Below, one piece after another: positions 1,179 to 29,995 of a stretch of DNA of 32,735 nt. This DNA is from a virus. The translations under genes were made by a program, and so were the position numbers. Numbering within the stretch: the stretch's first letter is position 1; the number at the start of each line of letters is the position of its first letter. The stretch covers positions 1 to 32,735 of IMG/VR virus record IMGVR_UViG_3300043395_000919; one strand, 5' to 3'. A model generated the notes under the pieces. It was not told the DNA's origin and made no database searches. It saw nothing but the letters and a program-made list of their open reading frames with translations.

Positions 1179-1189
1179 AATGAGATCCA

Positions 1190-1195
1190 TAAATA
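1190..1195 (+). promoter_or_regulatory. Late-promoter-like ATAAATA motif before the 1221 gene
   Basis: The sequence ccataaataaacc lies between two genes and matches the recurring (C/A)TAAATA motif. If transcription began about seven bases past the hexamer, the mRNA would start near 1202 and keep the Shine-Dalgarno sequence cgagga used by the gene at 1221. Confidence 0.4.
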
Positions 1196-6300: not shown

Positions 6301-6327
6301 CCAAGGTAAGTAAGGCTATGGTAACAA

Positions 6328-6356
6328 TTGACAATACAACACATATTGTTTACAAT
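6328..6356 (+). promoter_or_regulatory. Sigma70-type promoter driving the HNH gene
   Basis: TTGACA (6328-6333), a 17-base spacer and TACAAT (6351-6356) match the sigma70 consensus at 11 of 12 positions. The -10 hexamer ends six bases before the ATG at 6363, so transcription would begin at or next to the start codon. Confidence 0.6.
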
Positions 6357-6362
6357 GGTGAC

Positions 6363-6809
6363 ATGGATATTCAAACAAGATTCTGGTCAAAGGTAAACAA
6401 AAATTCATCTAACAACTGTTGGGAATGGATTGGTAGCCTAACAAAAAGTGGATATGGACAAATTGCAATAAATGGACCAAAATATGCTCATCGTTTAAGT
6501 GCTGAATGGGCTGGTCTAAACATTAAAAATCGTTTTGTATGTCATAGCTGTGATAATCCGCGTTGTGTTAACCCTGATCATTTATTTGTAGGCAAACACA
6601 CTGATAATGTTGCTGACATGGTCAGCAAAGGTCGTCATTTAAAAGGACGAGAAGTTTCAGCAGAAAAAAATAAGAAACCAATAATGACACCTTTTGGAAA
6701 GTTTAACAGTTTAAAAGATGCAAAGCAAACGCTAAACATGAATCCTAGAACTTTATGGAAAAAATTAAAAAGTTCTAATAGCGGATATTATTATTTGGAA
6801 AAACAATGA
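6363..6809 (+). CDS. HNH homing-type endonuclease
   Basis: The 148-residue product matches the HNH_3 type: an N-terminal RFWSKV with CWEWIG, then AHRLSAEWAG, CHSCDNPRCVNPDHL and a closing TDNVAD. The C-terminal segment TPFGKFNSLKDAKQTLNMNP looks like the small helical DNA-binding motif that often ends these enzymes. An upstream ATG at 6318 would add 15 residues outside the family pattern. I prefer 6363 because a sigma70-like promoter lies inside that extension and the relative at 12630 starts at the same family position. It is free-standing, sits between a virion gene and the Dps-like gene, and overlaps the latter by ATGA. Its base composition is more AT-rich than the neighbours, as expected for a mobile gene. 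Confidence 0.88.
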   Translation: MDIQTRFWSKVNKNSSNNCWEWIGSLTKSGYGQIAINGPKYAHRLSAEWAGLNIKNRFVCHSCDNPRCVNPDHLFVGKHTDNVADMVSKGRHLKGREVSAEKNKKPIMTPFGKFNSLKDAKQTLNMNPRTLWKKLKSSNSGYYYLEKQ

Positions 6810-7237
6810 CAACACAAGAACAACTAACGCAGTACTTCAAGGATAATTTTACCGCTTATTACAGAGCACACCAAGCTCATGTAAACATTGTGGGTCGAAA
6901 CTTTGTCAGTGACCACAAGCTGCTGAAAGGTGTGTATGAAGATCGCCAAGAACAAATTGATACCATTGGTGAACTATTGCGTACCATGGACGAATACATG
7001 CCTTGTGACCTCAATGAAGTAGTATTAGACAGTCGTGTAGACACAGGCAGACTAGATGGCGACAGTGAATTCTTGTTAGACATGGTGCGTCAAGACCTTG
7101 AACATCTAGTAGAATCCTTGCGCGACCTCATTGTCATTGCAGAAGATGAAAGCTATCCTGAAATTGCCAACTATGCACAGGATCAAATTCTTGCAATGAA
7201 GAAACAGATTTGGATGCTGCGTTCAACTTTAAGTTAA
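6806..7237 (+). CDS. Dps-like ferritin-fold protein
   Basis: The 143-residue protein resembles the Dps family, which forms 12-subunit cages that bind DNA and oxidise iron with hydrogen peroxide. Aligned by eye with E. coli Dps, the segment AHVNIVGRNFVSDHKLL falls on the AHWNMRGANF helix region. The four main ferroxidase ligands H51, H63, D78 and E82 correspond to H25, H37, D52 and E56, with identical spacing (12, 15, 4). The usual Trp next to the first His is Val, and the Asp equivalent to E. coli D67 is Lys. There is no Lys-rich N-terminal DNA-binding tail. The gene overlaps the HNH gene by ATGA. A role in protecting phage DNA or the host from oxidative damage is inferred. Confidence 0.78.
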   Translation: MTTQEQLTQYFKDNFTAYYRAHQAHVNIVGRNFVSDHKLLKGVYEDRQEQIDTIGELLRTMDEYMPCDLNEVVLDSRVDTGRLDGDSEFLLDMVRQDLEHLVESLRDLIVIAEDESYPEIANYAQDQILAMKKQIWMLRSTLS

Positions 7238-7324
7238 GCGGACAAGAACACCATCAAGAACCAGGTGATTTTTCCGCTTTCTAACCTGGGCATCAACGAA
7301 TAGGCAGGCGAGCTTGTGTCGTGT

Positions 7325-7825
7325 TCACTCAACAGCATCCAATAATTTGTATGCGTATGATCCTCTCACACTATAACCATGTCGTTCATGCAGGCGCAAA
7401 AAGCCACCTTGGTCATGTCGCATGGTTGTACTGCAAATAACACGATGATTACAATAGCGAGCAAATCTTTCCCAGTGATCCATCATGTCTGTGACCAAGC
7501 GCACTCGCTGTCTTGCACTCAAGGCTAGATCCACATGCGCCATGCGAACACTGACCATAGGATCATCGCTCCATACTGTGCGGTCTCCGCTTTTGGCCCA
7601 TGTGTAAGCTTGAAGTTGATGAGTGGCTGTGTCTCTAGCCACTGCTACCAATTCAGTGCCTGGCAAAAAGAATTGGTTTGTAACAGCAAATATAAGATTG
7701 CGTGTCATTACGGGAGGCTCTGGAGTAAAGATGGTGTCAATTTCTTGTTGAAAATGCTGTTCAGCCATCTTAACAATATCGCCAACATCATCGCCCGTGG
7801 CCAGGGTCCAGGTATATTCAGTCAT
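7325..7825 (-). CDS. GNAT-like acetyltransferase, reverse strand
   Basis: This 166-residue protein is the only convincing gene on the - strand. I chose the start at 7825 (MTEYTW) because aaagga lies seven bases upstream; an earlier in-frame ATG at 7840 has no such site. The fold order fits a GNAT enzyme: an N-terminal helix region, a central strand pair (LVAVARD and LQAYTWAK), VRMAHVDLAL as the strand before the cofactor helix, and a C-terminal HERHGYSVRGSYAYKL segment, typical of the end of GNAT domains. The acetyl-CoA loop (R/Q-x-x-G-x-G/A) is not clearly present, so the substrate and even the activity are uncertain. It converges with the Dps-like gene and diverges from the gene at 7889. 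Confidence 0.6.
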   Translation of the reverse strand: MTEYTWTLATGDDVGDIVKMAEQHFQQEIDTIFTPEPPVMTRNLIFAVTNQFFLPGTELVAVARDTATHQLQAYTWAKSGDRTVWSDDPMVSVRMAHVDLALSARQRVRLVTDMMDHWERFARYCNHRVICSTTMRHDQGGFLRLHERHGYSVRGSYAYKLLDAVE

Positions 7826-7875
7826 AGCAGTTCCTTTCATTAAGTGTGCTATTTAATCGCGCTGATTTAGGGCTG

Positions 7876-7882
7876 CTAAATA
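7876..7882 (+). promoter_or_regulatory. CTAAATA late-promoter-like motif before the 7889 gene
   Basis: TAAATA (7877-7882) is followed by exactly six bases and the ATG at 7889. No Shine-Dalgarno sequence is present in the 63 bases between the divergent genes on this strand, so the start may be leaderless. Confidence 0.45.
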
Positions 7883-7888
7883 AAAAAT

Positions 7889-8263
7889 ATGGAAGACCAA
7901 GAAAAAACAACCAAAAGCCCGCGCTACTCAAAAAAGGCAAGCAGCCGTGGAGGGCGTCGTGAAGGTGCTGGCCGCCCAAAGAACAGTCGTGACCAGCTCA
8001 CTGTGCGTGGCCTATTAGAAGCACTAGATCGTAAAACCAATGGGCGTGATTATGAAGATATCTTAGTTGAAGACTTTTTGCAGAGTCGCTTAAACAACGA
8101 TACACAGTTAACCTTAAAGTATCACAACCTTATACTAAACAAAGTTATGAGCAGCTTGGCCAAAATTGAAGTCAATGACAGCTCAGAAGCCATTGAAGCC
8201 AAACAAGCAGCTTTTGCAGCAGCACTGGCCAAATTGGTAGGTGTTGATCCAGAGACTAAATAA
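7889..8263 (+). CDS. GRPK-motif DNA-binding protein, possible small terminase subunit
   Basis: The 124-residue protein has a basic N terminus with GGRREGAGRPKNSRD (residues about 20-35), an AT-hook-like motif common at the start of phage small terminase and related DNA-binding proteins. The rest is predicted helical, with acidic and Leu-rich helices (YEDILVEDFLQSRL, KYHNLILNKVM). Size, motif and position about 2.7 kb upstream of the large terminase fit a small terminase subunit, which recognises the packaging site. I cannot confirm that and it could be another DNA-binding protein. The start has no Shine-Dalgarno sequence. The stop codon lies inside the next CTAAATAA motif. Confidence 0.6.
   Translation: MEDQEKTTKSPRYSKKASSRGGRREGAGRPKNSRDQLTVRGLLEALDRKTNGRDYEDILVEDFLQSRLNNDTQLTLKYHNLILNKVMSSLAKIEVNDSSEAIEAKQAAFAAALAKLVGVDPETK
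8256..8262 (+). promoter_or_regulatory. CTAAATA motif overlapping a stop codon, before the endonuclease VII-like gene
   Basis: TAAATA (8257-8262) is followed by six bases and ATG at 8269, the same geometry as at 7889 and 18486. The motif also contains the last codons of the upstream gene. Confidence 0.45.
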
Positions 8264-8268
8264 TCAAG

Positions 8269-8598
8269 ATGAAAATAGCACTGAAAAGTAAATTTGCCAA
8301 CAATGGTAACTGTAGTGAAACACAAAAAGCAAATCAGTTAAGATACCAAAATAAAAAATATTATGGTTTAACCACTGAACAGGCAAATGAACTAAGGGCT
8401 ACAAGTAGTTGTGAAATTTGTGGAGCAAAAGCTAAACGAATGGTTATTGATCATGATCACAACAAGCTTGGAACTTATAGAGGTTTGTTATGTAATCAAT
8501 GTAATCCAAGACTTGGATGGCTTGAAAAACATAAAGATGTCATTGAAGAATATTTAAAAAGAGGGCCACAGAATGCCACTAGTAAAGAGCAAGAGTAA
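8269..8598 (+). CDS. Endonuclease VII-like (His-Me finger) nuclease
   Basis: The 109-residue product matches the recombination endonuclease VII family: [11 protein letters not shown] (residues 32-42), then C48-x2-C51, the catalytic DHDH at residues 61-64, RGLLCNQCN with C75-x2-C78, and LGWLEKH. The two Cys pairs form the structural zinc site, and the His-Asp region holds the active-site metal. In T4 the full enzyme resolves branched DNA before packaging. Short free-standing versions like this one are common in phages and may act as homing nucleases. The gene is AT-rich, lacks a good Shine-Dalgarno sequence and its 3' end overlaps the next small gene by 26 bases. Both points suggest it was inserted. 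Confidence 0.88.
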
Positions 8599-8731
8599 AG
8601 CAGCGTTCAAGAAGAATGTTGCTACTGAAGTGAAAGCAGGAAGACCTGTAAAGCAGGCCGTTGCTATTAGCTATGCCGTACAACGCGAAGCGGCTAAAAA
8701 AGCATCTAAGACTCGCGCAAAAGGAAAATAA
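8573..8731 (+). CDS. Small basic phage protein (52 aa)
   Basis: An ATG inside the end of the endonuclease gene opens a 52-residue frame: [15 protein letters not shown], then a [16 protein letters not shown] core and a Lys/Ala-rich tail. I recognise this layout from many phage genomes, where short proteins with KSKSKAAF and GRPxKQAVAIAY-like segments sit near packaging genes. The function is unknown. It ends immediately before the ATG of the next gene. Confidence 0.75.
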
Positions 8732-8732
8732 A

Positions 8733-9200
8733 ATGAAACCAGCAAAAACACAAGCTGACAAAAACCTGGATTTCAACGGTATGGCCGGCGATGGCGTAAA
8801 TCGCAGTGCCAATCGTTTTGCAGGTAATCAGTGGTCAGGCCATTCCAACGATGGTCGTTTAGTAGACAAAGGTCGTGGTCCTACTAAGGGCAACCAAGAC
8901 CACAAGCCTATGACAGTAGGCAAGCCAGTGACCAAGGATGGATATCGTCCAGTTCCTGAGTGCCACACTCCAGCAGTACAGCCTGGCAAGGACATGTTCA
9001 AGTACACAACAACCATGCGTCAGCCTTCAGGCACACGCTCATGGGATCCACAAGCCACAGGAAATTACCGTGGCAACCCAGACTCTATCAATGTGTCAGG
9101 TTACTCAATGGGTGATGGCAAGACCAGCAAGGGCAGTCGTCCAGTAAGATCACCCAGCGATCCTGATGGCATGAACTACGGTCCTAAGAAACAATACTAA
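8733..9200 (+). CDS. Hypothetical Gly/Lys-rich protein with GRGPTKGN motif
   Basis: The start at 8733 has aaagga just upstream and begins MKPAKTQADKNLDF; a longer frame upstream has no site. The 155-residue product is polar, low in hydrophobic residues and probably largely unstructured. It contains GRGPTKGNQDHKP at about residues 47-59. The same GRGPTKGN string occurs at the C terminus of the next protein, so the two share an element. They lie between the endonuclease and the terminase block. I do not recognise a function. A DNA- or capsid-associated role is possible given the charge. Confidence 0.7.
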   Translation: MKPAKTQADKNLDFNGMAGDGVNRSANRFAGNQWSGHSNDGRLVDKGRGPTKGNQDHKPMTVGKPVTKDGYRPVPECHTPAVQPGKDMFKYTTTMRQPSGTRSWDPQATGNYRGNPDSINVSGYSMGDGKTSKGSRPVRSPSDPDGMNYGPKKQY

Positions 9201-9212
9201 GGAATGATTGAA

Positions 9213-9482
9213 ATGGAAAAAACATCTACAGGTAAAAGCATCAACCAGAAGCAAGGACCTAGAACAGGCAATGCTGGGTTTGGTAGCAAGCGCGAAGACT
9301 TTATGGCTGAAAAGTCAAAGGTCTCCAGTGAGCGTGCCAACCTAGCAAAGATGGTCACAGACGCACTAGAAACACGCGGCCGTGACAACAAGAGCTTCCG
9401 CGCTCCTGGTGTTGAAAGCTTGCATGATACAACCAATGTTGGCCGCGGTCCTACCAAGGGCAACGCTGGTAAGCGCAAGTGA
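9213..9482 (+). CDS. Small basic hypothetical protein with GRGPTKGN C terminus
   Basis: Two ATG codons are possible, at 9204 and 9213. The aagga at 9199-9203 abuts the first and sits nine bases from the second, so I chose 9213 (89 residues). The protein is basic and polar, with QGPRTGNAGFGSKR near residues 14-27, a helix around SSERANLAKMVTDALETRG and the ending NVGRGPTKGNAGKRK. The motif is shared with the upstream protein. The stop TGA overlaps the GTG start of the next small gene. Confidence 0.7.
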   Translation: MEKTSTGKSINQKQGPRTGNAGFGSKREDFMAEKSKVSSERANLAKMVTDALETRGRDNKSFRAPGVESLHDTTNVGRGPTKGNAGKRK

Positions 9483-9619
9483 AAAAAACATCCAAGCCAG
9501 CAAAATCAACTACACGAGGTTCTAAACAGCCTCGTGTAGCCAGTAAACCACGCCGTCCCAAACCTGTTCGTCAGACCACAAGACAGCGTGGTGCCTTAGG
9601 CGCTACCAGCGCCTATTGA
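9479..9619 (+). CDS. Very basic 46-aa protein, GTG start
   Basis: The frame starts with GTG overlapping the previous stop (GTGA) and encodes 46 residues, about a third of them Lys or Arg (VKKTSKPAKSTTRGSK, RRPKPVRQTTRQRGALGA). The overlap is the same coupling used elsewhere in this genome. A 10-bp perfect inverted repeat lies inside it. It could be a nucleic-acid-binding peptide. Because it is short and lacks a known family, it could also be spurious. Confidence 0.5.
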   Translation: MKKTSKPAKSTTRGSKQPRVASKPRRPKPVRQTTRQRGALGATSAY

Positions 9620-9666
9620 AATCTCTGTCTTAGACAGAGATAAATTATTGTGTGATTGAATCACAC
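9510..9666 (+). other. Cluster of four perfect hairpins before the 9686 gene
   Basis: Four inverted repeats follow one another: 9510-9519/9530-9539 (10 bp, 10-base loop), 9598-9604/9608-9614 (7 bp), 9621-9629/9633-9641 (9 bp, 3-base loop) and 9650-9656/9660-9666 (7 bp, 3-base loop). The first two are inside the small basic gene; the last two fill the gap before the next gene. None has a strong T tract, so they look more like mRNA processing or stability elements than terminators. Confidence 0.6.
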
Positions 9667-9685
9667 GCATAGAAAAGGAAATGAA

Positions 9686-10516
9686 ATGCAAAAATCTACA
9701 ACACCTACACCTGATCCCTGGGATCAAGGCACAGCAGAAGCAGTGGCACCAGCCACAGAAGCAGCACCTGCAAAATCCTCTAAGAAAAACAAAACTGAAT
9801 GGATAGTCACACCTGAGGAGCCTGCAGCTCAGGCACCAGCCAGCATGAATGCAGCTGAATATGACCTAGAAGGTCTAATGAGTGACTTCCCTACAGCCAA
9901 AGAACTAGAACGCTTTGTGTTTGATGAAACTGGCATTGTGCTTAACCTCAAAGGCCGTGCCAACAAGCTCAAGTATCAAGTGGCCATGGATGTACTGAAT
10001 GGCTTAGAAATTGATCCTAAGTTCATTGGCGATGACAACCCTTACATTGAAAAGGGTGATCTAGTTCCTGTTGATCCTATCAAGGATGCACCTGCTAGAG
10101 ATCGCAACTTACCAGATCGTACCAACACACAGAACTTGTTTATTTGTAATGTGGTTCCGCATCCTAACTTTGAAATGCGTAGCCAGGACAAGAAAGTATC
10201 TACTATTTTCCGCAAGTACAAGAATGGTATGATCAGCTATGAAGTATTAGGTCCTATTGAGCCAATGCCTTGGGGCGAAAAGATTGACAAGTATGGTCGC
10301 AGCAGACCAGAAGTGATCAAGATGATTGATCCACGCACTGGTGAACAAGTGGCTGTGCGCGAAGATGGTACACTAACTCCGCAGGGCAAACGCTTGCGAG
10401 CCATGATGCAAAGCTTCCGTGTCAACAACTCAAACCAATGGGATGTATGGATTGACCGTGAATTTGTTAGCTTGGATGATTCAGTCAAGAACAATCCTTG
10501 GGATCTACAATCATGA
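9686..10516 (+). CDS. Hypothetical protein of the packaging/head block (276 aa)
   Basis: The start at 9686 has aaaagga upstream; a longer TTG-initiated frame would run through a hairpin. The first 60 residues are Pro/Ala/Thr-rich and low complexity (MQKSTTPTPDPWDQGT). The remainder looks folded, with a helix ELERFVFDETGIVLNLKGR, a strand region NLFICNVVPHPNFEM and a WGEKIDKYGRSRP loop. It overlaps the next gene by ATGA and lies four genes upstream of the large terminase. I do not recognise a family. A virion or head-assembly role is inferred only from position. Confidence 0.75.
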   Translation: MQKSTTPTPDPWDQGTAEAVAPATEAAPAKSSKKNKTEWIVTPEEPAAQAPASMNAAEYDLEGLMSDFPTAKELERFVFDETGIVLNLKGRANKLKYQVAMDVLNGLEIDPKFIGDDNPYIEKGDLVPVDPIKDAPARDRNLPDRTNTQNLFICNVVPHPNFEMRSQDKKVSTIFRKYKNGMISYEVLGPIEPMPWGEKIDKYGRSRPEVIKMIDPRTGEQVAVREDGTLTPQGKRLRAMMQSFRVNNSNQWDVWIDREFVSLDDSVKNNPWDLQS

Positions 10517-10818
10517 ATCCAAGAGACAGCATGATTGATCAGGCGCAACAAGAACGCATGACTCGTGATGTCAAAATAATGCAAAAAGTAAATCAGGCCA
10601 ATAGGGAAGCGTTTACACAACGCTTTCCTGGTCAGATCCAACATTGTATGCGTTTGGTAGCAGAAAGATTGCAGGCCGTGCTGACCAACAAGCCCACAGA
10701 ACTTGCTGATCCCAGCACTTGGACTGCTAGTGCTCAAGAGATCCGTGACCTAACCCAAGCATTAGATAATCTAGCTGTGCTGAGTCAAACTTATCCCTTT
10801 GAGGAGAAACCACAATGA
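10513..10818 (+). CDS. Small helical hypothetical protein (101 aa)
   Basis: The ATG at 10513 overlaps the stop of the previous gene (ATGA), which I prefer over an in-frame TTG at 10498. The product is all polar helices (MIDQAQQERMTRDVKIMQKVNQ, EIRDLTQALDNLAVL) with no hydrophobic segment or recognisable motif. It overlaps the next gene by ATGA, so three genes are translationally coupled upstream of the terminase. Function unknown. Confidence 0.72.
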   Translation: MNPRDSMIDQAQQERMTRDVKIMQKVNQANREAFTQRFPGQIQHCMRLVAERLQAVLTNKPTELADPSTWTASAQEIRDLTQALDNLAVLSQTYPFEEKPQ

Positions 10819-10997
10819 TTAACATTACTAAAACTGCATGTACTCGTGTTGATGCTGAGTTTACTCGTTGTGGTGACTTGTTGATGGTCAAGTTTGTTCG
10901 TGAGGATCGTGACCTAGGTACCAGTACTTGGGAAATGAGTTTTGATGACACTGACCTTGAACACTTTATTGCTACACTAATAGAACAACAGGATTAA
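10815..10997 (+). CDS. Small hypothetical protein (60 aa)
   Basis: A 60-residue acidic product starts at an ATGA overlap and behind gagga. It has a strand-rich first half (LLMVKFVREDRD) and an acidic helix (DDTDLEHFIATLIEQQ). It ends one base before the terminase ATG. I do not recognise a family. Confidence 0.65.
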   Translation: MINITKTACTRVDAEFTRCGDLLMVKFVREDRDLGTSTWEMSFDDTDLEHFIATLIEQQD

Positions 10998-10998
10998 C

Positions 10999-12615
10999 AT
11001 GCTAGGCACTGATGTCATAATGGCTCGTGCCTTGCGTTATGTTCTAGATGAAAATAGCGTAGCACCAGAGACCTATACTCGATGGCCCAGTAACCTGCGG
11101 AATCAATTGCAGGATCTAGTTATTGGTATTGCAGATGACATGCAGTACAATCAACTCAAATACTTTAGGCCATTTGAGCACCAACGAGATTTTTTTAAAA
11201 CTGGCTCAGCTGATCGCCGTGGCATTCTTGCTGCCAACCGCGTGGGCAAAACCACATCAACCTGCTATGAAACAGCCATGCACCTGACAGGACAGTATCC
11301 TGAGTGGTGGGATGGCCATCGCTTTGATCAAGCTATAACTTGCATGGTAGCTGGTGAAGGTTGGAGCCAGGTGGCCTTGGTATTGCAAAATGAATTGTTA
11401 GGCACACAGGATGTTAAAATTACAGAGCAGTTGGGATCTGGTGCAATACCTCGTGATTGCATTATTGTTGATACTATGCGGAATGATGGGGCTAACTGTA
11501 TTGGTGTTGAGATCCGTCATAAATCTGGTGCTAACAGCTATCTCTTATTTGCCAACTATACGCAAGAGGTCAGACAACTACAGGGTTTCAAACTTAATTT
11601 GGCTGTGTTTGATGAACAGCCACCAGATGACTTCTTCAGTGAGATTGTTACTAGAACGGCTACTACACAAGGTAAAGTATTGTGTTCGTTTACTCCGCTC
11701 AAGGGTCTCAATGGACTAGTATCAAAGTTTTGGAACAAAGAAGAAGGCTATGAATATATTCGTGTCAGTTGGGATGATGTGCCAGAGTACGATCCTTGGG
11801 GACAACCATTCCTGCTGAAAGAAACTCGTCGTCAGCTGGAACGAGACTATCTACCGCATGAGCGAGAAGCTCGTATTGCTGGTAAGCCAGTTATGGGCAA
11901 GGGCGCTGTGTTTCAGATCCGTGATTGGCCAACTTATAACACAGGTGAAATTGATTTTGCTCGCATACCCAACATACAGCGTGTGATTGCATTGGACTTG
12001 GGTCTAGTCAATGACCAAACTGTGATAAGTTTAATGTATTGGGAGCCATATGAGCGTGTTGCTTATCTACATAAACAAATTATTGTACAAGGCATTGAGG
12101 AAGCCGTTCCTAGTCAATATATTAATCATCTACTTCGCCCTGAAGTTTTTGGTACTCCTATCGTATTACCTCCAGATGCCAGTACACCTGGGCGATACAC
12201 TATGAGTGCCAACTCTATTCGTGAACTGTTTGAGTCATATGAACTCAATGTGTATCACAAGCCTATTATGAATCCGCCTGACAGCCAAGGACGCATAACC
12301 AATCACAAAAGCTATGGCATTAACCAAATGCGTCAGATGTTGGAAATTGGCAGTTTAAGAGTCAATGCCAACTGTGTGAAGTTTTTGAGTGACGCACAAA
12401 ACTATTATGTGGATCAGCAAGGTCGTTTTAGTGATCCAGATGACACCATTGACTCAGCAAGATATGCTTTGCTGGCCTGCTTACAAGGTATTGCTGAAAA
12501 TTGGGACAATCGCACACCGCAACAGCGCATGGCAGCAGCTCGCGACAAGTTATACAAGCCCAGAGATGAATCTAAACTTCCGGCGTGGAAAAAATCGTAT
12601 GATCCAACAGTTTAA
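10999..12615 (+). CDS. terL: Terminase large subunit
   Basis: This 538-residue protein is the DNA-packaging ATPase-nuclease. The ATPase half has FEHQRDFF (adenine-binding Q region, residues 59-66), a Walker A-like AANRVGKT at residues 78-85 and a Walker B LAVFDEQ with D205-E206. The nuclease half has [10 protein letters not shown] with the first metal-binding Asp at 333, a middle LPPDAST segment and a late [14 protein letters not shown] with acidic residues in the expected place. Length is typical. It docks on the portal and cuts concatemeric DNA. The start is tight against the previous stop and lacks a strong Shine-Dalgarno sequence, so coupling is likely. An HNH gene begins at its stop codon. 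Confidence 0.96.
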
Positions 12616-12617
12616 TG

Positions 12618-12623
12618 TATAAT
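12618..12623 (+). promoter_or_regulatory. TATAAT -10 element six bases before the HNH ATG
   Basis: A perfect TATAAT is followed by six bases and ATG at 12630. I see no good -35 at 16-18 bases upstream, so it is weaker support than the 6328 promoter. The spacing to the ATG is identical to that of the other HNH gene. Confidence 0.35.
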
Positions 12624-12629
12624 ACAATT

Positions 12630-13046
12630 ATGAATACTATTATTGAACGATTTTTTAAAAAAGTTAGCAAACAATCTAATGGTTGTTGGGAATGGCAAGG
12701 CTGGAAAGATCCAGATGGGTATGGTATGTTTCGTAGCGAGCCAAGAAAAGATGTAAAAGCACATAGATTTAGTGCTACGCATTTAGCAGGTTTAGACATA
12801 AATGGAAAAGTTGTTTGCCACAAATGCGATAATCCTTCTTGTGTAAATCCTGCACATTTATTTGCTGGCACACATTTAGATAATCTAAAAGATTGCTTTA
12901 CAAAAAATAGGCAACGCGGTATAAGAATAACAACTCCGCTTGGGCGATTTCCTAGTTTATTATCTGCTGGTCGCGCTCATAATGTTGATGTCAGAACAAT
13001 ACGCAGAAGAATGAAACAATACCCAGAGCAATATTATAAAGGATAA
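12630..13046 (+). CDS. HNH homing-type endonuclease, paralogue of the 6363 gene
   Basis: The product (138 residues from 12630; 143 if the ATG at 12615, overlapping the terminase stop, is used) is a second HNH_3-type enzyme: [42 protein letters not shown] and LDNLKD. The C-terminal [19 protein letters not shown] segment matches that of the 6363 protein, so the two share the whole domain order. It is free-standing and AT-rich. HNH genes beside terminases are common in phages. In some long-tailed phages they take part in packaging cleavage; here a homing element is equally possible. Confidence 0.88.
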
Positions 13047-13048
13047 AC

Positions 13049-13285
13049 ATGGAAACAACACCCCTAGCAGCACCAGAACCCACACTATTTTTGGTTATGG
13101 TAGCAGAAAAAGCACCTGTAATCATGTGTGAACGACACAGCAGTACCTATCAAGCTTTGTGTGCAGATATCAATTTGCCAGCAACAGTGGTACCTTTAAC
13201 ACCTGAAGATGCAGCCACGCACAAATGCATGGTTTGTGATTTGGCTGACGAACTTACTCGTCCGCACATTATCTTACCAGACTAA
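13049..13285 (+). CDS. Small CxxH...CxxC putative zinc-binding protein
   Basis: The 78-residue product starts behind aagga. It has a short strand-like core (TLFLVMVAEKAPVIM), then C27-x2-H30 and, after a loop, C60-x2-C63. This arrangement would suit one zinc ion, although C38 and H58 are also near. It lies between the HNH gene and the portal. I do not recognise a family and no function can be named. Confidence 0.65.
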   Translation: METTPLAAPEPTLFLVMVAEKAPVIMCERHSSTYQALCADINLPATVVPLTPEDAATHKCMVCDLADELTRPHIILPD

Positions 13286-13288
13286 ATA
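13282..13288 (+). promoter_or_regulatory. CTAAATA motif upstream of the portal gene
   Basis: The motif overlaps the stop codon of the gene before it. A start about seven bases downstream would give a 20-base leader containing aaagga for the portal ATG at 13315, so this copy would make a normal leadered mRNA. Confidence 0.45.
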
Positions 13289-13314
13289 ATCCATGACCAA
13301 AGGAAACCAACCCG

Positions 13315-15615
13315 ATGCTGGATATTAAAAACACGCCCGTTCAGGACATTAATCAGAACAAAAAAATCAACGCCACTTTTGTGCGTATGAAGAATCAGAT
13401 GGATGTCAAAATGGCTAGCTACCTGCGCTACCTAGGCACCAAAAATGCTGTAAACCGCGCCACTGATTATCACTACCTCTGCCTTGCTGTTACTGATTCA
13501 ACTGCACCTGTAAACGGCATTGACTATATTCACCCTTCAGTAAAACCTGTTGTAGATTATGCAACAGCAGTTATTACCAAAGGCCTACTGCCCAACGGTG
13601 AAATTAACTTTGAATTTGTTGCTGAAGATGAAATGGATGAAACAGCAGCTCGTCAAGCAACCAACATGGTCAGCAAGGTTGTGAATCAGATGAATGATCC
13701 ACACTTTATCTTAGAGCGTTGGGTCATGGATTCAGCCATGCACAAAAATGGCATGATGATGATCAAGCCTATTCGTGAAGCAATCACTCGCTATGTAGAA
13801 ATCACAGGCACACAAGATCAGCTGCGAGCATTTGAACAGCAGGCTGCTGCCAGTGGTCTAACAACCCTGCGTCAAAGCCGTCGTAAAGAGTCAGTGGACA
13901 TGCAGGCTGTTATGGCAGAAATCCAGCAGCTGATGGGTGAAAACAATCAAGAGCAGATGCAGGGTCAAATTGACAACATCATGGAAAGACTCAGCACTTT
14001 GCCTGAAGAGCAAGATGACTTGGGCCTAGAAGCTGCTGCTGAAGCTTATGATGCCAACATTGAAACACAAGAAGAAATTTTAAGTAAGGCCATCAGTCGT
14101 CACACCAGTTACAAGGCCAAGTACAAGCTAACTGGCTACAACATCAACATCAAGTTCCACCCTATTGCACAGCACTACTGGATTTGTGATCCTACTGTGC
14201 CTGAAATGCGTGACCAGCCATTCTGCGGATTCTATGATCCAATGACTATTCAGGAAGCCACAGAACTGTATCCTGGCATTACAGATAACTTAGAAGAATT
14301 TGAGCGCCATGCAGAATACAACATGAACGGCGCATATCAAGCTGGTTCAGTGTTAAACAACTTGGCCATTCACGCCAGAGACTCTGTGCCTGTTATGGGT
14401 ATTCCAGTTTCAAGTGCAGCATCAGCAGATCCAGACAGTCGCCAAGTTAGTATTGTAACTGTATGGAACAAGTATGACATTGATGGTGATGGTGAACTAG
14501 AACTAATTGAATTGATCTATTCAGGTTCATACATCATCAGCGCCAAAGAAGTAGAATTCATTCCTGTAGCCAACATGTGTCCAAAACCCCTGCCAGGCAA
14601 CTTCTATGGCATGAGCATTGGCGAATCAGTTATTCCCATGCAGGAATATCAAACATCAGCTGCCCGTGCTGAGATCCAGTTGGGCTTGCTGACTGCTACA
14701 CCGCGCATTGGTGTCAAGCCAGACCGCGTTGACTTTGAAATGATGCAGGATGGCGAAGCTGCTATCTTTATCTTAGATTCAAAGTTTGATCCACAAAAAG
14801 ACATCTATCAAATGCCACCTCCTTCAGGCAACCTACAGTTCCTTGAAGTGGCTATGAATCGTATTCAACAAGATACCATGGCCATGGTTGGTATGACCAC
14901 TCCACAGGATGTGTTTAATCCAGAAGTTATGGCACCAGGCAACTCAGGTGTTAAACTACAAATGGCTCTAAGCCCTAACCAAATTATTCAAGACAACACA
15001 GTTCGCAATGCTGCTGAAGGTCTCAAAGAAGCACTTTGGTTGGTATGGCGCACCTTAATCCAGTACGGTGATGACTATGGTGTTAAGAAACTGGCACAAA
15101 GCAGCCACCCAGACAAGCAGCCTGTGTTCTTAGACTTTGCTGCGTTTGATGACATGAACTTTTGTGATCGCAAGCAGATTCAAATGGAACTGGCTTTAGG
15201 TATGCTGAGTCAAGAAAACGCTTTGGGTCGTCAACAACTGATTCAGAAGACACAGGCTCAGCTGTATGAAACTGTGCAGGGCATGGTAGCAGCTGGTACA
15301 CTTACACCTGAGATATTCCAAAAGGTCAAAAAGCCTTTTGTGGATACCTTGTATGTGTTGGGTGTCAAAGATTCTGGCTCTTACTTGCCAAGCGATGAAG
15401 AAGTCATTGCTATGATCAAGCAAGCTGAAGAAACACGCAAGAACAAAGGACCAAGTCCAGAAGATCAGAAGAATATCAGTAGTGCTAAACTCAATGATGC
15501 TAAGACTCAGCAGATTATTGCTGAAGTGTCAGGAGAAGATGCAGACAGCCAGCTGAACTTTATGAGTTTAGCTGCCAGCACTGAAACTGGTCGTCCACAA
15601 GATTACGGTCACTAA
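13315..15615 (+). CDS. Portal (head-to-tail connector) protein
   Basis: This 766-residue protein follows the large terminase and precedes the scaffold and capsid genes, the classic place of the portal. The N-terminal part has YHYLCLAVTDS and VKPVVDYATAVITKGLLP, as in the portal clip and wing. Residues about 190-260 are a long Gln/Glu-rich helix. The centre has YDIDGDGELELIELIYSG, a motif of the P22/SU10-like portal family, and PLPGNFYGMSIGESVIPMQE, typical of the stem region. The C terminus is a charged helical barrel segment. It is longer than most portals and close to the P22 size. It would form the dodecameric DNA entry ring. Confidence 0.88.
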   Translation: MLDIKNTPVQDINQNKKINATFVRMKNQMDVKMASYLRYLGTKNAVNRATDYHYLCLAVTDSTAPVNGIDYIHPSVKPVVDYATAVITKGLLPNGEINFEFVAEDEMDETAARQATNMVSKVVNQMNDPHFILERWVMDSAMHKNGMMMIKPIREAITRYVEITGTQDQLRAFEQQAAASGLTTLRQSRRKESVDMQAVMAEIQQLMGENNQEQMQGQIDNIMERLSTLPEEQDDLGLEAAAEAYDANIETQEEILSKAISRHTSYKAKYKLTGYNINIKFHPIAQHYWICDPTVPEMRDQPFCGFYDPMTIQEATELYPGITDNLEEFERHAEYNMNGAYQAGSVLNNLAIHARDSVPVMGIPVSSAASADPDSRQVSIVTVWNKYDIDGDGELELIELIYSGSYIISAKEVEFIPVANMCPKPLPGNFYGMSIGESVIPMQEYQTSAARAEIQLGLLTATPRIGVKPDRVDFEMMQDGEAAIFILDSKFDPQKDIYQMPPPSGNLQFLEVAMNRIQQDTMAMVGMTTPQDVFNPEVMAPGNSGVKLQMALSPNQIIQDNTVRNAAEGLKEALWLVWRTLIQYGDDYGVKKLAQSSHPDKQPVFLDFAAFDDMNFCDRKQIQMELALGMLSQENALGRQQLIQKTQAQLYETVQGMVAAGTLTPEIFQKVKKPFVDTLYVLGVKDSGSYLPSDEEVIAMIKQAEETRKNKGPSPEDQKNISSAKLNDAKTQQIIAEVSGEDADSQLNFMSLAASTETGRPQDYGH

Positions 15616-15636
15616 TAATTTAAAAAAGGAAATGCA

Positions 15637-15993
15637 ATGATCTCAGAAGAAGCGGTAGATGCCTACAACAAAAGATTGACCGTTGACACCAGCAACCCTA
15701 AAAAGTTAACACCCAGTCAGCGTGACGCTGTTAAAAGCTATGGCAGTTTAGCAGAAGCACTGATTAAGAATCGTGACCTGGCCATGTTTATACATCACTT
15801 CAAGTTTGAAGTAAATGATGCTATGGCCAATATTAGAACTCACACAGCAGAGGCCAACGCAGAGCGTGTGGCTCTTGCAAATCAACTTGCAGGTATTGAT
15901 AGTTTTATTAATACACTGAAAAGTGCAGTATATCGTAGAAATCAATTATTAAGAGCTGAACAAACTGCTGACCAGGTGGTTCGTCCAGACTAA
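15637..15993 (+). CDS. Hypothetical helical protein between portal and scaffold (118 aa)
   Basis: Starts behind aaagga at 15637. The product is helical throughout (KLTPSQRDAVKSYGSLAEALIK, then ANAERVALANQLAGIDSFINTLKSAVYRRNQLL), suggesting a coiled coil. It sits in the head-assembly block between portal and scaffold. No known family is evident. A head-assembly helper role is possible by position only. Confidence 0.72.
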   Translation: MISEEAVDAYNKRLTVDTSNPKKLTPSQRDAVKSYGSLAEALIKNRDLAMFIHHFKFEVNDAMANIRTHTAEANAERVALANQLAGIDSFINTLKSAVYRRNQLLRAEQTADQVVRPD

Positions 15994-15996
15994 ATA
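15990..15996 (+). promoter_or_regulatory. CTAAATA motif upstream of the scaffold gene
   Basis: The motif overlaps the stop of the preceding gene. A start near 16003 would give a leader of about 37 bases to the ATG at 16040, which has aaaagga upstream. Confidence 0.4.
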
Positions 15997-16039
15997 AATC
16001 CAGAGGTAACCACTATGGCCCTCAAGAAAAGGATAAAAT

Positions 16040-17215
16040 ATGCAAACGACAACGATTAGTCCTAACCCAGGTGCGGCGGACGCTAATCAAAGCGCAGTTC
16101 CAAGTATGGATACAATTGCAGCTAAAATGACCGCAATGCGTGAACAAACGCTGCGTAACCAGATTAGACAGCAACCAGAAGAAGCTGCAACAGGTACAGA
16201 TAATGCGGCAGCAGAGTCCAGCCCTGTGGCACCCAACAATAATGTTGAAGCCGAAGTTGCAGATTCCGCAGAAGCAGAATTAGCCAGCGACAATTTGGAA
16301 GCAGATGCCCAGCCAGAAGAGGCTGTAAGCACTGACAGTACAAATTCTACAGCAGAAGATTTGATTGACTTTATTGAATTTGCTGAGAGTAATCCTCAAG
16401 CCAAATTTAAGTTTATGCGTAATGGCAAAGAAGTCATCATTGATGCTAAGAAAGCCGCAGCAATTCTAGGACAAGGATCAGCAATACACGAAGAAGCACG
16501 CCAACTCAAGATTGAACGAGCAGAATTTGATGAGTATTTGAAGGATGTTCGAGCAAGGCAAGAGGGGTTAGCTCTTGCAATGGAATTCACTGTTCAACCC
16601 AAGCTGCAAAAGGCTTATGATGAAATCTTGAAAACACAAGGTTATCAAACAACTTTTCAACAGCAATTGGCAAGAACACAGGATCCTGCACAAATAGCAA
16701 GGATTCAGGCAAGCATGGCACAGAATGAGCAGTACATCCGTCATCAGCAAAAAGCTATCAGCAAGCTAAAGCCTGCGGTAGATCAGTTTCGTCAAGTACG
16801 AAGCCAGCAGGTGGCGCAGGTTCTTGAGACCAATCGCAAGAACTTTCAGGATAAAGAGTTGCGGAATGAATATGTCTACAACGAGATCCGTGATAAGATG
16901 AGCAAAATCTGGCCCAGTGCAAAAAGTGAAATCGTTCCAGGAGTGCCCAATATTGATTTGATCAGTTCTGATGAAGCTTTACTAAGCCTAGTTAGAGATG
17001 GTCTAAGATATAGGGACAAGCCCAAGACTCAAAGTGCCGGCTCAAGCATGGCTGCATTAACTCAGCGCAAAGGCAGCAGTACAGGATCTAACCGTGGTGG
17101 AGATAGTGATATCGCAAAACTTCGTGAACAAGCCAATAAAGGCGACAAGAAAGCCGCCGACAACCTCTTGGTAGCTCAGTTGCAAAGATTGCGACAGACC
17201 AGAGGTGGTAGATAA
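16040..17215 (+). CDS. Scaffolding protein
   Basis: The 391-residue protein lies directly before the major capsid gene. The N-terminal third is acidic and disordered (runs of Ala, Glu, Asp and Ser). Then come folded and helical parts: a DLIDFIEFAESNPQAKFKFM strand-helix stretch, long charged helices around residues 150-270, and a basic C terminus (GDKKAADNLLVAQLQRLRQT). An acidic, helical protein with a basic capsid-binding tail next to the capsid gene is the usual form of podovirus scaffolds. It would guide capsid assembly and then leave the shell. Sequence identity to a known scaffold was not established. Confidence 0.7.
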   Translation: MQTTTISPNPGAADANQSAVPSMDTIAAKMTAMREQTLRNQIRQQPEEAATGTDNAAAESSPVAPNNNVEAEVADSAEAELASDNLEADAQPEEAVSTDSTNSTAEDLIDFIEFAESNPQAKFKFMRNGKEVIIDAKKAAAILGQGSAIHEEARQLKIERAEFDEYLKDVRARQEGLALAMEFTVQPKLQKAYDEILKTQGYQTTFQQQLARTQDPAQIARIQASMAQNEQYIRHQQKAISKLKPAVDQFRQVRSQQVAQVLETNRKNFQDKELRNEYVYNEIRDKMSKIWPSAKSEIVPGVPNIDLISSDEALLSLVRDGLRYRDKPKTQSAGSSMAALTQRKGSSTGSNRGGDSDIAKLREQANKGDKKAADNLLVAQLQRLRQTRGGR

Positions 17216-17242
17216 TAGACCATTTTTTAAAGGAAGAAAATC

Positions 17243-18412
17243 ATGGCCGAAATTACAACCAGTCAGATTGGTAACGGTACAACAGCTTATGGCAGTGACA
17301 TCGTTGTCAAGGACTTAGACTTAGATGTTTCCAACAGAGTTAAAGATGACACTCCTGTTCTAAACATGTGTATGAGCAAGAAGCGTAAGGTTAACAGCAC
17401 ACTACCATTGTGGACTGATGACATTTATCGTGCTCCAGCTGTACAGGCACAGCTTGAAGGTGCTGCTGTTTCTACAGCCAATGCTGAAAGCAATCAGCGT
17501 TACAACCTGGGTAACTATACTCAGATCTTCTCAACTGTTATCGCTTCCAGCGGTACAGCCCGCGCAGTGATGCAGGCTGGTGGTGACCCACAGGCTTACC
17601 AAGAAGTCAAGCAGTTGATCGAACTCATGTTCGATGTGGAACTACAACTAGTTCGTAACGACCAAATTGGTACCAAATACGCTGGCCAGTCAGGTGCAGC
17701 CGCTGGTCTACCAGCTGGTCAAACTGGTCGTCGTATGGGTTCTTTGGCTTCGTTCGCAGGTACAATGAGCTTCAACACTACTTCAGGTTCTGTAAGTGGT
17801 TTGGACACATTCTACAACAACGAAGACACTGACTCTGCAACACAGATCAGCAACGCATTGCGTATCTACGCTAACGGTAACTACTACTACAACGGTACAT
17901 TCACCAACCAGGTGTTTAGCCCTGTACTGTACAAGCAGTTGGTAACCACAGCTGAACAGCGTTACAACGCCAAGATCCGCACTATGGTTGCTCCAACTTC
18001 ACTGAGAACTATCATCAGTGATAACATTGGTTCCAGCAACACAAGCATCAACCGTCGTAATGTTGAGCGTGGCGACACAATCCAGACTTACGAAGGTGAC
18101 TTCAACTACACTTACGAAATCTTTGATTCTTGGATCATGGATCAAGCTGGTGTAAGCAACAGCATCTACTTCTTGAACGAAGATGTTGTTCAGTGGGGTA
18201 GCTTGCGTGACCTAGGTCCTAACAACGAAGTGTTCTCAAACGCTGACGCTAGCTTAGACCAGTTCTTGCTTGAAGGTACACTAATTGTGCGTAACCCAGC
18301 TGGTGTTGCGATGTTGAACAACATCACAAACACTGGTTCATTGGTAACCACACCTCGTGCAAGTGCAACTGTAAGCCGTGTCAACTTTGGACCAGGCGAT
18401 GTTACACCTTAA
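17243..18412 (+). CDS. Major capsid protein (SU10-like HK97 fold)
   Basis: The 389-residue product starts behind a strong aaaggaag. Its layout fits the SU10-type capsid family of HK97-fold proteins: an N-terminal stretch up to DTPVLNMCMSKKRKV, then LPLWTDDIYRAPAVQAQLEGA (the start of the folded domain), a helix QEVKQLIELMFDVELQLVRND, SPVLYKQLVTTAEQRYNAKIRTMVAP and a C-terminal strand region with LRDLGPNNEVF. It lies after the scaffold and before a strong terminator. It would be the main shell protein. The C-terminal SATVSRVNFGPGDVTP tail may be flexible. Confidence 0.85.
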   Translation: MAEITTSQIGNGTTAYGSDIVVKDLDLDVSNRVKDDTPVLNMCMSKKRKVNSTLPLWTDDIYRAPAVQAQLEGAAVSTANAESNQRYNLGNYTQIFSTVIASSGTARAVMQAGGDPQAYQEVKQLIELMFDVELQLVRNDQIGTKYAGQSGAAAGLPAGQTGRRMGSLASFAGTMSFNTTSGSVSGLDTFYNNEDTDSATQISNALRIYANGNYYYNGTFTNQVFSPVLYKQLVTTAEQRYNAKIRTMVAPTSLRTIISDNIGSSNTSINRRNVERGDTIQTYEGDFNYTYEIFDSWIMDQAGVSNSIYFLNEDVVQWGSLRDLGPNNEVFSNADASLDQFLLEGTLIVRNPAGVAMLNNITNTGSLVTTPRASATVSRVNFGPGDVTP

Positions 18413-18439
18413 TCACTAATAGAAATATTAGGGTAACAG

Positions 18440-18468
18440 GAAAGGGCTCTCAGGGGCCCTTTCTTTTT
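18440..18468 (+). terminator. Intrinsic terminator after the capsid gene
   Basis: An 8-bp perfect stem (gaaagggc with gccctttc), an 8-base loop and five T residues follow the capsid stop by 27 bases. This would set off capsid transcripts from the downstream genes. Confidence 0.85.
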
Positions 18469-18472
18469 GACA

Positions 18473-18479
18473 CTAAATA
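18473..18479 (+). promoter_or_regulatory. CTAAATA motif directly after the capsid terminator
   Basis: TAAATA (18474-18479) is followed by six bases and ATG at 18486. A promoter is expected here because a terminator lies just upstream. No Shine-Dalgarno sequence precedes the ATG. This is the best case for a leaderless late transcript. Confidence 0.55.
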
Positions 18480-18485
18480 ACTACT

Positions 18486-19073
18486 ATGAGCACCCAAGAC
18501 CAACCAGAATTTTTAGATAATACAGACCCAGAAAAGAACTGGGATTACTACCGCCAAGATCACGGCGGCGTAGTAACCAACCACAATGGTGTTGCAGATC
18601 GCTTGTTACGCAACAATAATGACCTATATCGCAGCATGAAGGGCGATTGGACTAGAACTGCTACCAACAAGTCAGGCAATATCATTACTACAACTGGGCG
18701 CGAAGATGGTAAATTCTACATCAAGCGCGAACAGCAAAACACAGAAGAAATCAAGCTGCGCTGTAAAAATTACAGACATGCAGCAGAGCAAGGCGTACCA
18801 GATCCACTAGCGCCCATTGGTGAAGATGGCAAGTTAACCTACAAATGGATGGAACTGCCGTATGTGATTAGTATTCGCATCAGTGATCAATATTTTGATG
18901 GTATTCCTTGGAATGCCCTCAAGCACGACAGAACATTAAAGGCACAGTTCTACCGAGTGGTAGAATCTGAATATCCAGAATACATTTGCTACCCAGGTGG
19001 CCGATTACCTATTCCAGTGAGTGTGCCTTACCCTACCAAGAAGGGTGAAAACAAATACTTTCAAGGACACTAA
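18486..19073 (+). CDS. Hypothetical virion-block protein (195 aa)
   Basis: The product lies between capsid and adaptor genes. It has a polar N terminus, a basic middle (FYIKREQQNTEEIKLRCKNYRHAAEQG) and a strand-rich C-terminal part (KWMELPYVISIRISDQYFDGIPW, YPEYICYPGGRLPIPVSVPYPTKKG). I do not recognise a family. The position suggests a head-completion or decoration protein. The start has no Shine-Dalgarno sequence and a promoter-like motif just upstream. Confidence 0.75.
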   Translation: MSTQDQPEFLDNTDPEKNWDYYRQDHGGVVTNHNGVADRLLRNNNDLYRSMKGDWTRTATNKSGNIITTTGREDGKFYIKREQQNTEEIKLRCKNYRHAAEQGVPDPLAPIGEDGKLTYKWMELPYVISIRISDQYFDGIPWNALKHDRTLKAQFYRVVESEYPEYICYPGGRLPIPVSVPYPTKKGENKYFQGH

Positions 19074-19076
19074 TCC

Positions 19077-24737: not shown

Positions 24738-25012
24738 GCACAGAAAGAGATAATTTGGAGATACATGTGGACCTGTGCGAATTACGCTACAAGCAACTAG
24801 ATGATCGCATGACTCGTGTAGAAAACAAGATTGAAGATATCAATCGTGATTTGCGGGACTTCAAAGACGAAGTGCGCGAACAGTTTGACCAACTTAAAAA
24901 TTTACTAGGACAAGCCAAAGATCAAAAGTTCAACACCATGGTTGGTGCTGGTGCCAGTGTGGTAGTTGGATTACTGGCCTTGCTTGGATACATTGTGGTT
25001 CATGTGCGTTGA
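24734..25012 (+). CDS. Coiled-coil protein with C-terminal membrane anchor
   Basis: The 92-residue product has a charged coiled coil over residues about 5-65 (TRVENKIEDINRDLRDFKDEVREQFDQLKNLL) and one membrane segment at about 69-90 (GAGASVVVGLLALLGYIVVHV). This is the layout of XhlA-type hemolysis proteins and other phage tail-anchored proteins often found in lysis cassettes. A lysis role is possible; holin, spanin partner or membrane tether cannot be distinguished. It overlaps the previous gene by ATGA. Confidence 0.72.
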   Translation: MSTERDNLEIHVDLCELRYKQLDDRMTRVENKIEDINRDLRDFKDEVREQFDQLKNLLGQAKDQKFNTMVGAGASVVVGLLALLGYIVVHVR

Positions 25013-25023
25013 TAATTAAATGC

Positions 25024-29413: not shown

Positions 29414-29420
29414 CTAAATA
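29414..29420 (+). promoter_or_regulatory. CTAAATA motif beside a sigma70 promoter
   Basis: An exact copy of the recurring CTAAATA motif ends two bases before the TTGACA of the promoter at 29423. It is followed by G instead of A, and has no ATG at the six-base position. Confidence 0.3.
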
Positions 29421-29422
29421 GC

Positions 29423-29451
29423 TTGACAACCACAGTCCCGAGCAGTATAAT
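29423..29451 (+). promoter_or_regulatory. Perfect-consensus sigma70 promoter
   Basis: TTGACA (29423-29428), exactly 17 bases, then TATAAT (29446-29451). Every consensus position matches. The start would lie near 29458, leaving a leader of about 39 bases and the Shine-Dalgarno aggag for the ATG at 29497. Confidence 0.88.
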
Positions 29452-29496
29452 AAACACATGAACTGCGCGGTGTGGTTCTAGTACGAGGAGAATGAA

Positions 29497-29614: not shown

Positions 29615-29995
29615 ATGTTCAAACTTGCGGCCACCCTAGCTATCTTGCTGACCACAGCAGCCACAGCACAAGCCTACTCTGCTCCAGAATACCCTGCACC
29701 ATTGACTAGAACTCTAGCCACTGGCACACATCAGATCTTGTTTCAAGCTGGTGACGCTCAACGCCAAGAGAGTATGGCCATCTCTTGGATAGTGTTGCAA
29801 AACCGTTATGATCAACAGCGTGAAGAATTTAGGGTGCGTGTGAACTGTGATCGAGGTCTCGTGCAGATTCAGGAACATCGTAGCTGGAGTGAGAATCGTG
29901 TGCCTAGACCCGTAACCACCCAGACTTCAGAATGGTTTAGCCCAGAACCAGGTAGTTTAACAGCAGCGGTAAGGCACATCTGCGTCCATAAATAA
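29615..29995 (+). CDS. Secreted protein with signal peptide, surface-adhesin E-like
   Basis: The start at 29615 gives MFKLAATLAILLTTAATAQA, a clear signal peptide with an AQA cleavage site near residue 20; the upstream in-frame TTG would spoil it. The mature part of about 106 residues has strands and two cysteines, C78 in VNCDRGL and C123 near the end. The pattern W-x-V ... VNCD ... EWFSPEPGSLTAAVRHIC resembles the surface-adhesin E family of proteobacteria, where a DC motif and a terminal PGS...VC pair form a disulphide. Expression from a strong promoter and export to the periplasm suggest an envelope-modifying or superinfection role. This is inference. Confidence 0.6.
   Translation: MFKLAATLAILLTTAATAQAYSAPEYPAPLTRTLATGTHQILFQAGDAQRQESMAISWIVLQNRYDQQREEFRVRVNCDRGLVQIQEHRSWSENRVPRPVTTQTSEWFSPEPGSLTAAVRHICVHK
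29988..29994 (+). promoter_or_regulatory. ATAAATA motif before the nozzle-like gene
   Basis: The motif overlaps the stop of the secreted-protein gene. With the spacing used for the other copies the mRNA would start at about 30001, one base before an 8-bp hairpin. Confidence 0.42.

Follow-up and report, generated by a model that had tools for sequence, protein, structure and literature searches.

Do the mRNAs of some phage genes begin at the start codon itself? The question is raised by IMGVR_UViG_3300043395_000919, a virus contig of 32,735 bases with genes mostly in one direction (this whole stretch is called the window here), in which a preliminary description pointed to five ATG codons (6363, 7889, 8269, 12630 and 18486), each six bases behind a -10-like hexamer, as candidate leaderless starts. 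We arrive at the reading, to which we give a probability of about 0.8, that the window comes from a clade that uses a single-element promoter, [C/A]TAAATA, that the transcripts would be leaderless where this word lies close to an ATG, and that endonuclease genes would be expressed in a similar manner.

With its SU10-type portal the window represents part of a podovirus genome from a large uncultured clade of water phages. A nucleotide search of INPHARED with the window gave no match, and the named phages are distant only: the top match in a protein search with the major capsid protein (MCP) is the metagenomic podovirus MW202484, at 63%. Relatives were collected by a capsid-based scan of viral contigs, which gave 535, and the best 80 of these were kept. 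A separate scan with a divergent homolog of 18486 provided a hold-out set of 39 distinct contigs outside the first set, and 80 contigs around MW202484 served as a sample of the sister clade. Three contigs have direct terminal repeats, i.e. G003 (39.5 kb), G009 (35.9 kb) and G011 (35.7 kb); these and other contigs are referred to by our own handles.

The arrangement TAAATA, six bases, ATG, which had been claimed for 7889, 8269 and 18486, occurs exactly three times in the window, with TAAATA at 7877, 8257 and 18474. The expected number is 0.25, and none of 100 dinucleotide shuffles reaches three. Since all three sites read CTAAATA, and CTAAATA is found six times on the plus strand and never on the minus strand of the window, we take the 7-mer to be the true unit.

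This unit is conserved. Each of the 75 sequences that have the 18486 gene, the window included, carries [C/A]TAAATA 5-7 bases before an in-frame ATG, either as CTAAATA with a spacer of five (N5, 51 sequences) or six bases (N6, 13 sequences) or as ATAAATA with N5 (6), N6 (3) or N7 (2). When the 55 distinct contexts of this gene are compared in pairs, the word has an identity of 0.96, the spacer, of which there are 29 different versions, one of 0.47, and the 20 bases upstream one of 0.34; words resembling a Shine-Dalgarno (SD) sequence are present in 4 of the 55, and a U-run precedes the word in 45. In the hold-out set the word is found at N4-6 in 36 of the 39 contigs. It is, moreover, common to several unrelated genes, namely 18486 (75 sequences), 7889 (33), 8573 (22), 15637 (16) and a small basic protein (8). 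The sister clade has 0.05 CTAAATA per kb as opposed to 0.26 per kb in the window's clade; in the sister sequences that were inspected CTAAATA is absent before the 18486 ortholog, where GGAG or AAGG is often seen instead, and no element was found before the orthologous gene of MW202484. Conservation on the one hand and this lack on the other mark the arrangement as a conserved trait of the window's clade. The expectation that relatives would keep the spacing is thus strongly borne out for the TAAATA class, where the spacing is conserved, the spacer sequence is not, and SD sequences are rare.

The position and orientation of the word are those expected of a promoter. In long contigs (G003, G009, G011 and others) [C/A]TAAATA occurs about 10-20 times per contig and nearly always on the coding strand; a number of these sites immediately precede an ATG, and at others an SD-led gene follows after 20-45 bases. 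For CTAAATA the coding strand accounts for 267 of 300 sites (89%). When starts were chosen by an SD or by a position at N4-7, an SD was present at 7 of 121 close sites (N4-7) and at 166 of 204 distant ones (N12 or more). As a choice based on the SD favours finding an SD at distant sites, an unbiased version was run in which the first ATG of every frame was taken: for 300 unique CTAAATA sites the starts fall 66 times at N4-7, twice at N8-11 and 103 times at N12-40. Permuted 7-mers reach comparable scores only if they overlap the core of the word, the best of the others scoring 6. The gap is bimodal, i.e. 4-7 bases without SD or at least 12 bases with SD and almost nothing between, and this fits a promoter, not a ribosome site. 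With an RNA start about six bases past the word an empty range at N8-11 is expected, because the transcript either starts at the AUG or needs space for an SD. The base before the ATG is a pyrimidine at 88 of 94 close, leaderless-type sites as compared with 81 of 178 distant, leadered ones; a pyrimidine at -1 followed by a purine at +1 is a common start-site pattern.

Aligned sites show no informative column in the -35 region and no TG extension. GTAAATA and TTAAATA are not enriched before starts; a C or A is required in front of TAAATA. The earlier view of TAAATA as a sigma70 -10 hexamer is therefore given up in favour of a single-element word, [C/A]TAAATA, that resembles the late promoters of the T4 family and has no -35. 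The 8-mer form of T4, TATAAATA, followed by N6-ATG, does not occur in the window. Outside the structural genes, in L082/L083 (G001) and L084/L085 (G003), about eight ATAAATA sites are preceded by C[TA]GAA[TC]NNNNNG, e.g. ctgaatacaaggATAAATA; all members of this subclass are leadered, and it possibly represents an activator site or a second promoter class.

We propose that many copies of [C/A]TAAATA, which have no -35 partner, drive a predominantly unidirectional transcription in the clade, and that RNA would start about six bases past the element, by analogy with T4-type late promoters. Where the element stands 5-6 bases before the ATG (7889, 8269, 18486), the mRNA would begin at the A of the AUG and would be translated without a leader; where it is at least 12 bases away (the portal gene, 16040, 1221 and 30038), a short leader with an SD would result. 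The element with its strand bias, spacing, conservation and missing SD can be read directly from the sequences, whereas its role as a promoter, the precise RNA start and leaderless translation are inferred. Leaderless expression behind a T4-late-like single-element promoter seems very probable to us for 18486 and 7889, and probable, if a little less so, for 8269. The product of 7889 is probably the small terminase subunit, as judged from its position and a basic GGRREGAGRPKNSRD motif; the protein had no hit in PHROG or Pfam. The features concerned are collected in the table.

Table. Elements and genes of the window that bear on leaderless expression (coordinates in the window; a single number designates a gene)
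Feature	Position	Strand	Remarks
ATAAATA, leadered form	1189..1195	+	25 bases before ATG 1221; GAGGAA
TTGACA-17-TACAAT, sigma70-type promoter-like sequence	6328..6356	+	6 bases before ATG 6363
HNH endonuclease gene	6363..6809	+	reading from putative leaderless ATG; 6318 as alternative start
CTAAATA element	7876..7882	+	6 bases before ATG 7889
Putatively leaderless gene, 124 amino acids	7889..8263	+	33 family members with the element
CTAAATA element	8256..8262	+	overlaps stop codon of upstream gene; 6 bases before ATG 8269
EndoVII-type nuclease gene	8269..8598	+	PF02945, 1.4e-13; between CTAAATA element and 8573 gene
Large terminase (TerL) gene	10999		
TATAAT directly behind TerL stop codon	12618..12623	+	6 bases before ATG 12630
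HNH endonuclease gene	12630..13046	+	reading from putative leaderless ATG; 12615 as alternative start
CTAAATA, leadered form	13282..13288	+	26 bases before portal ATG 13315; SD (AAAGGA) between
SU10-type portal gene	13315		PF23899, 1e-42
CTAAATA, leadered form	15990..15996	+	43 bases before ATG 16040
Major capsid gene	17243		
Intrinsic-terminator-like hairpin after major capsid gene	18438..18465	+	12 bp stem, -19 kcal/mol, z -4.9; T-rich tail
CTAAATA promoter-like element	18473..18479	+	6 bases before ATG 18486
Putatively leaderless gene, 195 amino acids	18486..19073	+	follows major capsid gene, precedes next virion gene; no known family
CTAAATA	29414..29420	+	upstream of gene starting 29497
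ATAAATA, leadered form	29988..29994	+	43 bases before ATG 30038

Three of the genes discussed here are nuclease genes, two of the HNH type (6318/6363 and 12615/12630) and one of the EndoVII type (8269). All have nuclease domains and are missing from most relatives, as expected of free-standing homing-type endonucleases, with empty sites in L003 (for 8269) and L002 (for 12615). The EndoVII gene occurs sporadically. L003 lacks it but has CTAAATA at the corresponding position, and there a leader with an SD and then the 8573 gene come next; in the window the nuclease ATG stands six bases behind this element. The gene would thus use the resident CTAAATA directly before it. Other nucleases behind CTAAATA are the homing-type proteins of L059 (N4) and L068 (N6, GIY-YIG-like by eye). 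In L003 itself (1057-1100), CTAAATA-N5-ATG opens a frame of six codons (MKKELS) within the SD leader of the next gene.

The two HNH genes stand behind sigma70-type sequences, and both arrangements that had been described are there. TTGACA-17-TACAAT-6-ATG 6363 is the best sigma70 match (11/12) in the region 6200-19200, where sigma70-like sites show no overall excess (25 found, 24.5 expected); the TATAAT at 12618, six bases before ATG 12630, has no good -35. A set of 1,126 distinct clade genes contains seven in which TATAAT or TACAAT lies 5-7 bases before a start, with no SD-led start nearby. Six of the seven are nucleases, which overall make up 26 of the 1,126 genes (Fisher p 6e-10); without the two window genes the proportion is four of five. 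Individual examples from relatives are the HNH genes of L035 (TTGCAC-16-TATAAT-6-ATG) and L221 (TATAAT-N6). In L003 the gene just behind the TerL stop encodes a nuclease-like protein unrelated to these (phrog_16521, with a weak match to HNH); the sequence there reads TAATGC-TATAAT-6-ATG, and no gene is inserted at this site in L002. The same TerL-stop site thus bears unrelated nucleases behind TAATG(C)TATAAT-6-ATG in the window (12613-12630) and in L003 (about 5125-5149), possibly as a hot spot or a shared promoter remnant. We suggest that 12630, and probably 6363, use a minimal sigma70-type -10 near the end of the upstream gene, with RNA starting at their own ATG. Leaderless expression is somewhat favoured for 12630, and for 6363 the chances seem to us even. 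The comparison with relatives agrees moderately with the proposal for these two genes: the arrangement recurs in few homologs and an SD is seen in many, while the sigma70-type arrangements do concentrate on endonucleases.

We gave up the idea that TATAAT-N6-ATG is a hallmark of nucleases in general, since many of the IMG/VR matches, judged by eye, do not look like nucleases. In a scan of IMG/VR (L262-L341) for GTGTTATAAT-N5-7-ATGA, 46 of 81 matches open frames of at least 45 amino acids, and these come from many phages; some resemble DNA polymerase or primase when read by eye, with no family search. A TTGAC-like word is often seen about 17 bases upstream of such matches. It may be that environmental phages often use leaderless sigma70 starts. 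Cases of TATAAT-N6-ATG in L072, L033, L002 and L092 were rejected, since they precede a downstream SD-led start and probably reflect a mere start-site preference. With all this in mind we offer, as a tentative picture, that mobile endonucleases have spread with or into a minimal unit (a -10, 5-7 bases and ATG) that would be expressed behind stop codons with neither leader nor ribosome site, while in the phages themselves a conserved set of structural genes would be expressed without leaders from a CTAAATA promoter that resembles T4 late promoters and is read by a factor that escaped recognition.

Other explanations have to be weighed for the main class. The word might be a translation-initiation element, i.e. 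an A/U-rich site that binds the ribosome or S1 on longer transcripts, so that the genes are independent of an SD but not leaderless. The word does occupy the usual position of the SD, and in the 8573 and 15637 families it comes, in a polycistronic context, right after a stop codon; however, it is also found 12-60 bases upstream of SD-bearing starts and almost never at 8-11, it comes after terminator-like hairpins, and more than half of the CTAAATA copies lie at most 40 bases upstream of a start in addition to the strand bias of 89%, all of which makes this explanation quite unlikely. It is less improbable, although we would still not expect it, that TAAATA is an ordinary variant of the host sigma70 -10 and that host RNA polymerase produces the leaderless transcripts with no special promoter class. 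Leaderless genes whose -10 stands about 12 bases in front of the start are found widely in bacteria (PMC3160421), sigma70-type leaderless-like starts are widespread in IMG/VR phages, and neither the Pfam search for sigma regions 2 and 4 nor the PHROG comparison of selected proteins found a phage sigma factor, but the need for C or A before TAAATA, the missing -35 and TG extension and the fact that the structural genes of the phage do not use TATAAT all speak against it. Chance, in the form of a stop-codon context (TAA followed by ATA) at A/T-rich gene junctions, could account for the stop-overlapping sites and A/T-rich spacers; it is hardly credible and is refuted for the main class by the conservation in 75/75 and 36/39 sequences, by the different behaviour of permuted words and by the retention of the word after a terminator-like hairpin (18486) and behind a divergent gene (7889).

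For the HNH genes the question is where the proteins start. If 6363 and 12630 are internal methionines, the real starts would be 6318 (SD-led) and 12615 (coupled to TerL), and TACAAT and TATAAT would be just codons. Both upstream ATGs are indeed in frame; 6318 has the weakly SD-like AAGGTAAGTAAGG in front of it, and at 12615 the ATG and the TerL stop share bases in TAATG. Against this, the two HNH proteins align with each other exactly from ATGs 6363 and 12630, and the nearest outside homolog, in L182, begins at the same residue behind TATAAT-N7 and has no upstream ATG. The sequences of L035 and of the unrelated nuclease of L003, given above, speak in the same direction. We lean away from internal methionines here, even though this alternative deserves to be taken seriously.

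Several observations weigh against the reading we prefer, that of a [C/A]TAAATA promoter with leaderless starts close to it. The spacing from word to ATG varies between N4 and N7 and is not absolute, and three of the 39 hold-out contigs have no element. The element overlaps the stop codon in some relatives (an overlap of TAAATA and stop codon, as at 8257, is frequent among them), so short-range translational coupling could play a part at 8269 and 8573. Owing to the earlier in-frame ATGs of both HNH frames, ATGs 6363 and 12630 need not be starts. Some circularity attaches to the nuclease test, in that the pattern itself helped to gather some nuclease families and two of the genes are those of the preliminary description; furthermore, an SD is present in many HNH homologs, so that the leaderless-type start is a frequent option and not a rule. 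A scan of bacterial genomes with the MCP for a candidate host gave no relative. Finally, sigma regions 2 and 4 (PF04542, PF04545) had no hit in the window and its relatives, including G003, G009 and G011, and selected unknown proteins compared with PHROGs revealed no sigma. AlphaFold models of a conserved protein encoded upstream of TerL (predicted local distance difference test, pLDDT, 68) and of the 18486 protein (pLDDT 57) gave no significant match in Foldseek, and with models of such low confidence a sigma-like fold is neither supported nor excluded. Possibly [C/A]TAAATA is recognised by a divergent phage factor or by a host factor.

A few other features of the window may be mentioned. At 29414-29499, CTAAATA is immediately followed by a perfect TTGACA-17-TATAAT-AAACAC-ATG, i.e. 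two promoter types stand back to back; the ATG opens a frame of seven codons only, and a small SD-led hydrophobic protein is encoded from 29497. At 13282-13330 CTAAATA-N4 leads into a short frame, at about 13293, that overlaps the beginning of the portal gene. The gene at 7325-7840 on the minus strand is conserved amid a plus-strand region and has TTAAATA about 20-30 bases before its own SD-led start. The left-end gene contains long DSG/DTG repeats (1-700), and its homolog in G003 has ATAAATA-N5-ATG upstream and is thus of the leaderless type too. Positions 6806-7237 encode a clade-wide protein that is a 'DNA binding protein' in PHROG (phrog_3636) and Dps/ferritin-type by impression, and 25009-25542 encode a protein similar to aspartyl/asparaginyl beta-hydroxylases (PF05118, 8.5e-13).

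If our reading is true, structural genes of a widespread uncultured clade are translated without leaders beside SD-led genes of the same phage, and the two kinds of genes offer a natural, matched comparison by which leaderless initiation in environmental bacteria can be studied. Such starts are put in the wrong place by SD-dependent gene finders. A genome of about 36-40 kb that bears a T4-late-type promoter word but no recognisable gp55 would point to an unknown specificity factor, and leaderless endonucleases would suggest a simple route by which selfish genes can be expressed after landing between other genes.

How does this arrangement compare with known systems? The late promoters of T4 consist of TATAAATA at -13 to -6 without a -35 (PMC1524935), and the late consensus of Aeh1, a T4-like phage, is CTAAATA with its first base at -12 (PMC2988020), which is identical to the window's word letter by letter. 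A word at -12 to -6 leaves five bases before +1, the commonest spacing found here. Shared with the T4 family are an A/T word of 7-8 bp that precedes the start by about one helical turn, the lack of a -35 and an A/T-rich downstream region. On the other hand, T4 requires gp55, gp33 and gp45, none of which was recognised in the window's clade, and this clade consists of podoviruses of about 36-40 kb in which the start codon is often the predicted transcription start as well. PhiEco32 also has a single-element promoter, with starts 6-8 bp downstream, that is read by a phage sigma (PMC8948821), and the window's portal matches the type of SU10, a phiEco32-like phage. The words are different, however: tAATGTAtA of the gp36-type promoter was not matched, the conserved word being [C/A]TAAATA, and no sigma domain was found in place of the sigma encoded by phiEco32; the term 'leaderless' is absent from that paper. 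In the Thermus phage phiYS40 the middle and late mRNAs are leaderless (reviewed in PMC3594737). There, as here, a whole class of phage genes is concerned, but the host is Thermus and most middle and late transcripts are included, whereas in the window's clade it is a predicted, conserved minority beside SD-led genes. Leaderless mRNAs are also made from lambda cI and from PY54 cI and cro, with the PY54 5' end mapped at the AUG (PMC4488713). As is predicted for our HNH class, these genes have strong promoters just upstream of the start codon; unlike that class, they are single regulatory genes of temperate phages and not structural genes or nucleases. For a mobile HNH gene, SD-free expression has been proposed in the case of the ShiLan-domain endonuclease hidden in a mycobacteriophage methylase (PMC11855218), although that gene is internal, out of frame and read from a longer transcript, with no -10 at a fixed spacing. 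Leaderless expression in a phage is thus not in itself as unusual as the preliminary description supposed: lambda, PY54 and phiYS40 are precedents, and the window's clade would be a variant of what they already show.

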